A stretch of DNA of 64,000 nucleotides from Olsenella massiliensis (GTDB lineage Bacteria > Actinomycetota > Coriobacteriia > Coriobacteriales > Atopobiaceae): assembly GCF_001457795.1 (NCBI RefSeq), contig NZ_LN898211.1:764979-828978 (forward strand), given 5' to 3'. Position 1 is the stretch's first letter. Every line of letters starts with the position of its first letter. Shown piece by piece: positions 3,076-59,233 of this stretch. A program made the translations under genes and the position numbers. The notes under the pieces were generated by a model that was not told where the DNA came from, made no database searches, and was given only the letters and a program-made list of their open reading frames with translations.

Positions 3076-3319
3076 GGTGCCGTCCCTTCCTTGGTCGTAT
3101 GCCCTCTGGCCCTGACGCAGAAGGCACGCCCCCCCTCTGGCGAGGGATGCGTGCCCAGACGGTCGGCAGGTCATGTCTGCGCTGCTCCACCGTGGTGTCC
3201 CACGAATCTCCGTCAGTCACAGCGCGTTCTTGTCCCCACTGTAGCACGTAGGCGGCGTCGTGGGGCGTCACTCGGCTAGAATGGGTCTGTCCGGTTGGTC
3301 GAGCATGGGGCGGAGGCAC

Positions 3320-22248: not shown

Positions 22249-22316
22249 TCCGACACCCCGCGAAATCTGACACCCCGCGAAATCCGACACCCCGCGAAAT
22301 CCGACACCCCGCGAAA
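22249..22316. repeat. 17-bp x 4 tandem repeat overlapping the RBS of the next gene
   Basis: Four head-to-tail copies of TCCGACACCCCGCGAAA start at 22249, 22266, 22283 and 22300; only the second differs, by one base. The last copy runs into AAAGGAACGATC and the ATG at 22326, so copy number could alter the leader or spacing of that gene. No extended palindrome is seen. Confidence 0.95.
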
Positions 22317-30905: not shown

Positions 30906-31034
30906 GCCTCAGGCCCGTCTGGACCAGGGGGCTGAGGTCGTCGGCCCATCGCGCGCGGCCCAGAAGGCCGGCGGCGACGGCGCGGCACGAGGGGGCCGCC
31001 GGGCGGGGCGGCACCGCAGGACGAGGGAGGCGGC

Positions 31035-31832
31035 ATGACGGGACACGGGCACCGCAGGACGAGGGCGTCGGGACGGTCCCAGCTGTGTGGCACGGGCGTC
31101 GCGGCTAAGACGTCCGCGAGCGTCGGGGCGCACCTCGACGTGCTCTATCGTGACGCCTGGCTGTGTGCGGTGGACAAGCCCCAGGGCATCCTCGTGCACG
31201 GCGACGGCGGCGGAGCGACCACCCTCTCGGAGCTCGTCGCACGCCAGCTTGCCCGCGAGTGCGCCGTGATCACGCGTCCCCAGGCGCTCCAGCGCCTTGA
31301 CGTGGACACCTCGGGCATCGTGCTCTTCTCGCTTGACCGCGACACCCAGGAAGCGTTCGACGCCCTCTTTGCCAGGCGTCTCGTCCGCAAGCGCTACCTC
31401 GCCCTGGTGCGCGGCAGCTTCCCTGCAGGCGAGAGGGTCGTCGACCTGCCTCTGGGACGCGACCGGCATGACGGCAGGCGCATGCTCGTCTGGTCCGGCG
31501 GCAGGCCCTCGACGACGCGCGTCCGCCTCCTGGCCAGGCAGGGGCAAAGGTCCCGCGCCCGCTCGCTGCTGCTCGTCGAACCGCTTACGGGCCGTCGCCA
31601 CCAGATTCGCGTGCATCTGTCCCACCTGGGTTTTCCCATCGTCGGTGATCGCCTCTACGGCGCGGGTGCGCCCGGGGGCCTCATGCTGCACGCCCTGGGG
31701 ATCAGCCTGACCCATCCCCTGACGAACGAGTCGCTCGACCTCTCGACGCTGCTGCCGCCGCGCTTTGTGGACGTGCAGCCTGACCTTCCCGAGCTGTTGG
31801 GCGGCCTTACGGGGACGGCGAGTCCCGGTTAG
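31035..31832 (+). CDS. RluA-family pseudouridine synthase
   Basis: 265 residues. Catalytic motif is LQRLDVDTSGIVLFS (RLDxxTSG, with Gln in place of the usual His), then FARRLVRKRYLALVRG and PLTGRRHQIRVHLSHLGFPIVGDRLYG. Target uridine (rRNA or tRNA) cannot be told; no S4 domain is visible. GGGAGGCGGC precedes the ATG. Confidence 0.9.
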   Translation: MTGHGHRRTRASGRSQLCGTGVAAKTSASVGAHLDVLYRDAWLCAVDKPQGILVHGDGGGATTLSELVARQLARECAVITRPQALQRLDVDTSGIVLFSLDRDTQEAFDALFARRLVRKRYLALVRGSFPAGERVVDLPLGRDRHDGRRMLVWSGGRPSTTRVRLLARQGQRSRARSLLLVEPLTGRRHQIRVHLSHLGFPIVGDRLYGAGAPGGLMLHALGISLTHPLTNESLDLSTLLPPRFVDVQPDLPELLGGLTGTASPG

Positions 31833-31994: not shown

Positions 31995-33626
31995 ATGGCA
32001 GGCACCATGCGCGGCGTCTACACCAACCTGACCGAGATTCGACGCAACGTCTTTCGGGAGGTGGCGAGCATCTGCTATCGGGCGGGCAAGGATCGGAACA
32101 TGACGAGGGCGGACATCGACGACGCCTTTGACGAGCTGCCCTACAAGATCCTGCCGGGCGACGTGGCGACCTATCGCGAGAGCGTGTTCCTTGAGCGCGC
32201 CATCATCGGCGAGCGCATCCGGCTTGCCATGGGCCTCTCGCTCCAGGGCGTTGACCGGCCGCAGCGCATCTCGGACGGCTTCAACGAGGCGGAGGTCGAC
32301 AACCTCTCGTACTACGAGCCGCCGCTCGTCAACGTCATCAAGTTCGCCTGCAACGCCTGCCAGGACAACGTCTACGAGGTCACCAACACCTGTCAGGGCT
32401 GCCTGGCGCATCCCTGTCGCGAGATCTGTCCCAAGAAGGCCATCACCTTCGTCAACCACAAGGCATACATTGACCAGGACCTCTGCATCAAGTGCGGGCA
32501 GTGCTTCAAGGTCTGCCCCTATGGCGCCATCCACCATCACGTGCGCCCCTGCGCTGCCGCCTGCGGCATGAACGCCATCAGCTCGGACGAGCACGGGCGC
32601 GCCGACATCAACTACGAGAAGTGCGTGAGCTGCGGTCAGTGCCTGGTGAACTGCCCGTTTGGGGCCATCGCCGACAAGAGCCAGATCGCCCAGGTCATCT
32701 GGTCCATCCAACACGGCGAGGAGGTCATCGCCGCCGTCGCGCCCTCCTTCGTCGGACAGTTTGGCGGCAAGGGCAACGTGGGGAAGCTGCGCGAGGCCTT
32801 CAAGCTCCTGGGCTTCTCGGGCGTCGAGGAGGTGGCCCTGGGCGCGGACCTCTGCACCGTGCAGGAGGCGGAGGACTTCCTCGAGGAGGTGCCGGCCAAG
32901 CTCCCCTTCATGGGCACGAGCTGCTGCCCGGCCTGGTCGGTCATGGCCAAGAAGGAGTTCCCCGACCACGCCGGCGCCGTCTCGATGGCGCTTACGCCCA
33001 TGACGCTCACGGCGCGCATGATTCGCATGCAGCGCCCTCACGCCAAGATCGTCTTCGTGGGTCCCTGCTCGGCCAAGAAGCTCGAGGCCATGCGTCGGAG
33101 CGTTCGCTCCGAGGTGGACTTCGTCCTCACCTTTGAGGAGATGGCGGGCATGATGGAGGCGCGAGACATCGACTACCTCAGCCTCGAGGACGACGACAAG
33201 AGCGACTTTGACGTGGCGAGCACCGACGGTCGCAACTTTGCCGTCGCGGGCGGCGTGGCGACGGCCGTGGCAAACGCCATCAAGCGCACCCATCCCGACC
33301 GCGAGGTCAAGGTGGTCAACGCCGAGGGGCTCGACAACTGCCGCACGATGATGAAGGACGCCATCAAGGGCAAGTACCCGGGCCACCTGCTTGAGGGCAT
33401 GGCCTGCCCGGGCGGGTGCGTGGCGGGGGCCGGCACCCTCGTGGCCATCAGGAAGTCGGCCGCCGCGGTCAAGCGCTACGCCAAGCGCTCGCCGCACATG
33501 AACTCCACCGAGAACATCTACTGCGACCTCATTCCCACGCTCGAGAAGGGCTTCACGAAGCAGGACCAGGACAACGAGGTTACCGAGACCTTCGAGGCCC
33601 AGATTCCCAAGTCCCCCCGTCAGTAG
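31995..33626 (+). CDS. Single-subunit [FeFe] hydrogenase (4Fe-4S plus H-cluster domain)
   Basis: 543 residues. An N-terminal ferredoxin region has CNACQ, CQGCLAHPCREICP, CIKCGQCFKVCP and CVSCGQCLVNCP clusters. The H-cluster motifs follow: TSCCPAW (about 308), GPCSAKK (about 356) and EGMACPGGC (about 467). The layout fits monomeric or group B-type [FeFe] hydrogenases of anaerobes. No maturase genes (hydE/F/G) are in the window. I chose ATG 31995 because GGGAGG at 31982 is too close to the ATG at 31989. An intrinsic terminator follows. Confidence 0.92.
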   Translation: MAGTMRGVYTNLTEIRRNVFREVASICYRAGKDRNMTRADIDDAFDELPYKILPGDVATYRESVFLERAIIGERIRLAMGLSLQGVDRPQRISDGFNEAEVDNLSYYEPPLVNVIKFACNACQDNVYEVTNTCQGCLAHPCREICPKKAITFVNHKAYIDQDLCIKCGQCFKVCPYGAIHHHVRPCAAACGMNAISSDEHGRADINYEKCVSCGQCLVNCPFGAIADKSQIAQVIWSIQHGEEVIAAVAPSFVGQFGGKGNVGKLREAFKLLGFSGVEEVALGADLCTVQEAEDFLEEVPAKLPFMGTSCCPAWSVMAKKEFPDHAGAVSMALTPMTLTARMIRMQRPHAKIVFVGPCSAKKLEAMRRSVRSEVDFVLTFEEMAGMMEARDIDYLSLEDDDKSDFDVASTDGRNFAVAGGVATAVANAIKRTHPDREVKVVNAEGLDNCRTMMKDAIKGKYPGHLLEGMACPGGCVAGAGTLVAIRKSAAAVKRYAKRSPHMNSTENIYCDLIPTLEKGFTKQDQDNEVTETFEAQIPKSPRQ

Positions 33627-36007: not shown

Positions 36008-36407
36008 CCCATAGGTCTGCGGGCGCCGCGCGCCGGTTCCTACCGGTTCCTATAGGCTCGCGGACGACACGCACGGATTCCTATAGGTTCCTATAGGCTC
36101 GCGGACGACACGCACGGATTCCTATAAGTTTGAGGGCCCCGCGCGCGAATTCCTATAGGTTTGAGGGCCTCTCCCGTGCAGAGCTATAGGTTTGAGGAAA
36201 AAGGGGAATTCCTACCTGGGCAAACGCCGTGGTGATTCCTCAAACCTATAGGTCTGTCTCCTTCGACCTCTCAAACCTATAGGTGCGCGGCGACGCTGCC
36301 CTCAAACCTATAGGTGCGTGGCGGCACCGCCCTCAAACGTATAGGTGTGGCAGGTCGCGGGCCTCAAACCTCTAGGCGCGGCACGCCGTGGCACTCAAAC
36401 GTATAGG
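36008..36407. repeat. Palindromic repeat array B: fullest copy, six repeats per arm
   Basis: Left-arm 15-mers start at 36008, 36049, 36090, 36121, 36152 and 36183 (steps 41, 41, 31, 31, 31). Right-arm inverted 15-mers start at 36238, 36269, 36300, 36331, 36362 and 36393 (all steps 31). The 40-bp core, 36198-36237, contains TTCCTACCTGGGCAAA. An extra CCTATAGG at 36080 lies just before the copy at 36090. Repeats are near perfect around the core and decay outward. The last right repeat ends 15 bp from the stop codon of the minus-strand PASTA gene. No coding potential. Confidence 0.95.
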
Positions 36408-58915: not shown

Positions 58916-59233
58916 GCTATTGGTTTGAGAGTGGCGGCAGTGCACGCCTATACGTTTGAGAGTTCTCGGGCCACTCTCCTATACGTTTGAGAGTCGCTGG
59001 ACCTCACACCTATACGTTTGAGAGCTCTCGGGCCACTCTCCTATACGTTTGAGAGCGCCTGGTCGATACAGTTATAAGTTTGCGAAATTGACGCTGCATT
59101 TGCCCAGGTAAGAATCGCCTTTTATTCTCAAACTTATTAGTATTCTCCCGATCCATCCTCAAACGTATTGGAACTCGTCGGACGTGCTCTCAAACGTATT
59201 GGAACTCGACGGACGTGCTCTTAAACGTATTGG
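58916..59233. repeat. Palindromic repeat array C, divergent and inverted relative to A and B
   Basis: Left-arm 15-mers (CCTATACGTTTGAGA type) start at 58916, 58947, 58978, 59009, 59040 and 59071; right-arm inverted copies start at 59126, 59157, 59188 and 59219. Every step is 31 bp. The core 59086-59125 is exactly 40 bp and contains TTTGCCCAGGTAAGAA, the reverse complement of the A/B core motif; by eye 31 of 40 positions match after reversal. Repeat sequence has drifted (ACG for AGG, GAGA for GAGG) but identically in both arms. Spacers CTCGGGCCACTCT and AACTCGTCGGACGTGC are themselves reused. Fills most of the 680-bp gap 58831-59512. Confidence 0.95.

Follow-up and report, generated by a model that had tools for sequence, protein, structure and literature searches.

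What is the repeat array at positions 36,009–36,406 of this stretch, in which short units run towards a common centre from both sides? The window, by which we mean the whole 64,000-nt stretch analysed, holds three such arrays (A, B and C), with the following layout.

73–219, + strand: array A left arm, five units pointing toward the core (unit starts 73, 114, 145, 176 and 207)
236–249, − strand: array A core, TACCTGGGCAAACG (reverse strand CGTTTGCCCAGGTA), centred in the 62-bp gap between unit centres
262–336, − strand: array A right arm, three inverted units (unit starts 262, 293 and 324)
36009–36196, + strand: array B left arm, six units (starts 36009, 36050, 36091, 36122, 36153 and 36184; steps 41, 41, 31, 31 and 31)
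36213–36226, − strand: array B core, TACCTGGGCAAACG, with the arm dyad at 36217.5, between positions 8 and 9 of CGTTTGCCCAG
36239–36406, − strand: array B right arm, six inverted units, all steps exactly 31 bp
58917–59084, + strand: array C (orientation opposite) left arm, six units in 31-bp steps
59097–59110, + strand: array C core, CATTTGCCCAGGTA, with the dyad at 59105.5 and the core in the same register as in A and B
59127–59232, − strand: array C right arm, four inverted units within the window, in 31-bp steps

This layout agrees with a sequence-only reading that had described array B as six direct and six inverted units around a core, and A and C as following the same plan with a core gap of 40 bp: we counted 6 + 6 units in B, 5 + 3 in A and 6 + 4 in C, and the innermost 15-mers lie 40 bp apart in all three. 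Measured between unit centres, as defined by the palindrome within the unit (CCTATAGG and variants), the innermost units are 62 bp (2 × 31) apart in each array, so that the core fills one slot of the unit grid. The 13-mer unit CTATAGGTTTGAG, allowing up to three mismatches, has 41 matches in the window, most of them in three clusters, compared with 3.1 ± 1.8 in dinucleotide shuffles (maximum 8). Self-similarity at an offset of 31 yielded 196 matches across the 64-kb window, and all seven of their clusters fall inside the arrays; no cluster of at least six was detected in 1.47 Mb from 80 other bacteria, a background control drawn from a UvrB-anchored sample of named genomes, mostly distant taxa. 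The repeats had also been described as strongest beside the core, which is true of A and B; in C the innermost units match worst of all (three mismatches).

The genome to which the window belongs (1.82 Mb in 13 contigs, 97% complete; UvrB 88% identical to that of Olsenella phocaeensis, which agrees with the Coriobacteriia named in the sequence-only reading) contains 13 arrays, A, B and C included, a number reached by three routes. All 13 share the inner pattern TTTGAG-N16-TACCTGGG(C/A)AAA-N14-CTCAAAC, also written TTTGAG-N16-TACCTGGGMAAA-N14-CTCAAAC, with at most two mismatches and zero length change across this 55-bp inner geometry. The earlier inference of a dispersed family with fixed geometry is thus borne out, and loss of the 31/40-bp geometry in other copies, which would have refuted it, did not occur. 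Arms carry from 2 to about 7 well-preserved units. The proposed 31-bp spacing is the commonest step (59 cases) but not universal: steps of 41 bp (10) and 62 bp (10) are also present, along with 7 others, the three main values covering 79 of 86. Few units lie outside the arrays. Pairwise identity among six diverged copies is 97% in the core, 64% in the units and 41% in the spacers, a gradient that is hard to obtain by neutral decay of a duplicated block. At least two more arm families in this genome are built on the core CGTTTGCCCAG; one core serves several arm families within a single genome. The 15-mer is the changeable part of the element and the core the part common to genera, a distinction not visible to the sequence-only reading.

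The window core CGTTTGCCCAGGT, the ATATGCGCAGGT-like core of genome G040 (same genus; matching strand) and CGTTTGCCCAGTT of genome G043 lead to a shared motif, the 13-mer CGTTTGCSCAGKT, which is the reverse strand of the TACCTGGGCAAACG noted earlier; the core spans 11–13 letters. Exact matches to this 13-mer were compared with those of the same pattern reversed over 398 genomes of the class. The counts were 154 vs 1 in G040, 38 vs 1 in G043, 32 vs 0 in G119, 27 vs 0 in G115, 25 vs 0 in G120, 20 vs 2 in G056 and 11 vs 1 in the genome of the window. By family (tallies made by hand, which may be off by a few counts), they were about 794 vs 69 in f1 (Atopobiaceae-like, 111 genomes), 295 vs 45 in f2, 131 vs 50 in f3 and 31 vs 23 outside the order. 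Enrichment of the core is seen across Atopobiaceae-like genomes and is weaker in a sister family, and counts outside the order are those of background. Copy number in related genomes ranges from 0 to 154, and the core element is missing from some nearly complete genomes. Part of the 13-mer matches are due to chance, and relatives were read only in part: matches in background-count genomes are mostly coding or without arms, and in some genomes many exact 13-mers lie outside such elements, several loci in G042, in G114–G121 and outside the family being coding or armless.

Among the loci read, most genuine copies have the core at the dyad between inverted arms, and the arm sequence is particular to a species or to an element. 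Mutually unrelated arms surround it in G040 (AGAATGCGCTTTTCCGTGAG), G032 (AAAGCCACACTCTGTTTCA), G038 (AAAGTGCACACGCAACG), G039 (GCGTTGGATTGAG), G049 (GTGTACGGAACTCG) and genus g34 (GTTCTTTAGCGGTTTCTGAGAAT and GGAGTTTAGCTCCATTTCTTAAA), and the window's own 55-bp pattern is absent from all 139 other family genomes; the full pattern had no match in the genome contig or viral contig collections. Complementary arms (at least 11 of 12 bases) flank 64 of 90 cores in G040, compared with 5 of 90 after shuffling. Whatever the arm distance, the right gap minus the left gap is 6 or 7 nt in most arm pairs, as seen in many elements of the window's genome, G040, G038, G039, G049, G032 and G006, and in 36/36 axis-symmetric g34 copies (offsets 5–8 tried). 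This constant difference places the dyad at one fixed spot of the core in unrelated families. CGTTTGCSCAGKT thus keeps one register relative to the dyad of the inverted units. Arm families are common to dispersed copies within a genome and differ between genomes.

Spacing recurs along with the core. Downstream of uvrB, G040 carries another array of 31-bp pitch with the unit GTGAATCACTCACTTCG, which has more than 100 matches in that genome, and G043 has arrays of 30–31-bp pitch around CGTTTGCCCAGTT. Across 49 elements of G040 family A, unit steps are 31 (123 cases), 30 (21), 41–42 (17) and 61–62 (9); start-to-start distances across the core of 56, 87 and 118 become, after correction to the GCGC centre, 62, 93 and 124, all multiples of 31. 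In the window's family and in G040 family A, which are unrelated, the 31-bp grid therefore continues across the core from one arm to the other without losing register. Multi-unit families have 31-bp unit spacing, with exceptions mostly of 30, 41–42 or 62. Homology extends about 110 bp to each side in G040 family A, and about 60 bp in g34 elements, before it drops to background. Some families have another pitch (20–21 or 28) or no recognisable core and may or may not belong, so the class may be heterogeneous. Separately, 1.2 Mb of G040 (L315–L374) contain at least four more intergenic palindromic families (GTGTACACAAAT.., GCACTGCCACTCGG.., GTGCCACTCGGTGGC.. and GTGCCCCAGAATCTGCGGGGCAC), some without the standard core.

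We interpret the array as a non-coding, dispersed, REPIN-like extragenic element that is a double-stranded-DNA protein-assembly site, with a conserved core factor and one or more fast-changing arm factors, and assign this reading a probability of about 0.55; the proteins and the mobility are inferred. In the proposed scheme, a lineage-wide protein would recognise the core, a fast-evolving sequence-specific protein would bind the units side by side, and a symmetric complex centred on the core could then be assembled. The spacing is one ground for this arrangement: 31 bp corresponds to three helical turns and the exceptions to 10-bp slips, as would suit proteins aligned along one face of the helix. 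Neither a binding protein nor a mobilising enzyme was identified. Plasmid centromeres and iterons, such as parC of R1, have helically phased repeats flanking a short core and an oligomerising DNA-binding protein. The 31-bp phasing is consistent with such a design, although here the arms are inverted, the sites are chromosomal and present in at least 13 copies, and no adjacent cognate gene was recognised among the array-flanking genes read.

Palindromic structure at gene 3′ ends could also suggest an RNA element, that is, a bidirectional terminator or 3′-UTR hairpin with the core in the apical loop, and g34 indeed has single-hairpin versions with stems of 20–23 bp and loops of about 37–40 nt. 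Multi-unit versions, however, would fold into 15-bp helices interrupted by 16-nt internal loops, and the 31/41/62 spacing tracks DNA helical turns, which an RNA would not need. The arms are almost without covariation: within-copy complementarity is barely above that of shuffled partners (0.847 vs 0.829; 0.888 vs 0.867), which favours units read as double-stranded DNA in trans and disfavours a selected stem, whether of RNA or cruciform. In G040 the within-copy match slightly exceeds the shuffled value (p = 0.015), so a minor structural role of the arms is not excluded. The window arrays are not flanked by T-tracts, and Rfam 15 returned no match at gathering score for the window elements or 10 relative loci. 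We consider the RNA reading improbable. The element had been called unrecognised, and the open-access literature likewise yielded no described repeat to which it could be assigned, no account of such repeats from Coriobacteriia and no mention of the core sequence in a relevant context.

The closest match in behaviour is to REPINs. Like REPIN, BIME and REP sequences, the arrays are short, non-coding, extragenic, palindromic and dispersed, families of this kind reaching tens to hundreds of copies, with species-specific sequence, clustering and frequent inverted pairs. Mobilisation by RAYT, a Y1 HUH transposase, would account for such a genome-specific family. REPINs nevertheless conserve their ends and less so the spacer (PMC3116915), whereas the arrays conserve the centre, and their core is common to genera while the arms are replaced. 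The 97% vs 64% identity of core and units and the arm match given above likewise fail the expectation of conserved ends, a variable spacer and compensatory hairpin changes. The units also lie on a 31-bp grid, and none of the GTAG or CGTC tags associated with REPs and RAYT transposases (PMC3733652, PMC2817692) was noticed while reading them, in the absence of a systematic unit-end comparison. No PF01797 (Y1/RAYT) match was obtained in the window's genome or in six other element-bearing genomes, G038, G039, G120 (25 core copies), G032 (15), G042 and G054. RAYT mobilisation is thus largely refuted for the window's genome, unless the gene sits in the missing 3%, and in general we give it very little credence. 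In G041, a Y1 transposase gene on contig C28 (31600–31926) does have arrays of another family to both its left and right. They consist of GAGACATTGGGGACGGAGC at a pitch of 30 (L222 11025–11110 and 13032–13260, about 31025–31110 and 33031–33260 of the contig). These look like a classic RAYT with its REPs, distinct from the core elements.

For the assembly-site reading, spread and persistence would follow the fashion of REPINs or MITEs, presumably through an enzyme other than RAYT. The arrays resemble MITEs in being small, non-coding and multi-copy, with inverted repeats and presence/absence between species; they differ in that homology is densest mid-element and fades outward without sharp termini, and neither a target-site duplication nor a parent transposon was found. 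A subfamily at L267, L269, L270, L271 and L065 has outer inverted ends, TACTCGRGGGGTGCC, enclosing variable arms and core, and is possibly a TA-inserting MITE form. Two G040 arrays in L111 (687–855 and 2325–2470) are near-identical, in the same orientation and about 1.6 kb apart, with small genes between them. In G043, two core arrays of opposite orientation (L211, 450–760 and 1680–1870) flank two small genes in a composite-element-like layout; by eye only, this pair resembles a nucleotidyltransferase/HEPN toxin–antitoxin system.

Integrase sites combine variable arms with a conserved core, a plan similar to that of the arrays. The arrays could accordingly be attachment or recombination sites, with a core-type recombinase site and units as arm-type sites, but up to 154 cores per genome and the lack of any integrated element at the core make this scarcely credible. 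Nor are viral contigs enriched in the core (4 matches vs 19 for the reversed control pattern), which leaves a phage origin unsupported, and blastn returned nothing for array B from phage and plasmid records or from E. coli genomes. CRISPR arrays share the regular repeats and near-constant spacers; here, however, 15-bp units stand in two opposed orientations around a central core at about 13 dispersed places, spacers are shared between copies, and neighbouring genes read as housekeeping rather than cas. CRISPR is ruled out.

Genomic context bears on who benefits. In the 1.2 Mb of G040, all 53 family-A-like cores are extragenic, where only 22% of the sequence is non-coding; 32 are in tandem, 14 in convergent and 7 in divergent contexts. 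The 13 arrays of the window's genome lie in 7 convergent, 6 tandem and 0 divergent contexts, beside ordinary genes (uvrB, nrdB-like, murB-like and pth-like, named by reading sequences without family search support). With no divergent context and few solitary units elsewhere in the genome, promoter regulation was rejected. A host-functional site at gene 3′ ends, serving nucleoid organisation, replication–transcription insulation or supercoil control and kept for the benefit of the cell while its arms turn over fast, gains some support from the preference of strong inverted repeats in G040 for convergent regions (20/63, vs 25/262 tandem and 5/89 divergent) and from the palindromic elements with unrelated arms found 3′ of uvrB in the window's genome, G040, G041 and G038/G039. 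We regard such a role as unlikely, though it cannot be dismissed: copy number is as uneven as noted above, orientation is unbiased (28:25 in G040), and copies come and go between sister species. One intergenic region across g34 species holds no copy in G117 (a 71-bp gap), one in G118 and about three in G115, G119 and G114; at a second site the element is absent from G116 and G121, and elsewhere the same copy is retained, as in the locus pairs L386/L406 and L394/L414. Copies are thus inherited but also gained, lost and piled up. Those sampled are extragenic, and it is within corresponding intergenic regions of related species that they appear, disappear and multiply. Under the assembly-site reading, gene 3′ ends would simply be tolerated sites. 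Clean transposition was not demonstrated and mobility is only inferred, as no target-site duplication was recognised by eye at gain/loss sites, and these cases include additional flanking sequence. Homology is limited to the element. G038 and G039, 99–100% identical at the compared loci, were uninformative for empty sites.

A bolder version of the assembly-site reading, which we advance only tentatively and think may well be wrong, is an undescribed chromosomal nucleoprotein site at which a symmetric lattice with helical phasing grows from a universal core factor, the arms and their reader protein being replaced rapidly in each lineage (in an arms-race or meiotic-drive-like manner) and several arm families sharing one core within a genome. 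Should the assembly-site reading hold, a large unnamed class of intergenic elements, with up to 154 exact cores in one genome, would exist in at least one bacterial family (Atopobiaceae-like), and in this class REPIN logic is reversed, the centre fixed and the ends free. The 31-bp lattice and constant core would make the binding factors fishable with DNA bait, and the swapping of arms on one core would render site/reader co-evolution testable across close relatives.

Some further observations were made alongside. An array family (L039) lies 3′ of a purine-phosphorylase-like gene (C11:16242–17441), and the G040 orthologue of this gene also has an array of unrelated sequence on its 3′ side (285.5–285.8 kb), as with uvrB; the recurring position is suggestive, without a significance figure. 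Within the window, a ZTP (pfl) riboswitch was identified at 3146–3230 on the − strand (56.5 bits vs a gathering score of 39, E = 1.7e-06), and a tandem repeat at 22249–22316 (period 17, four copies, 96% matches) is unrelated to the arrays.
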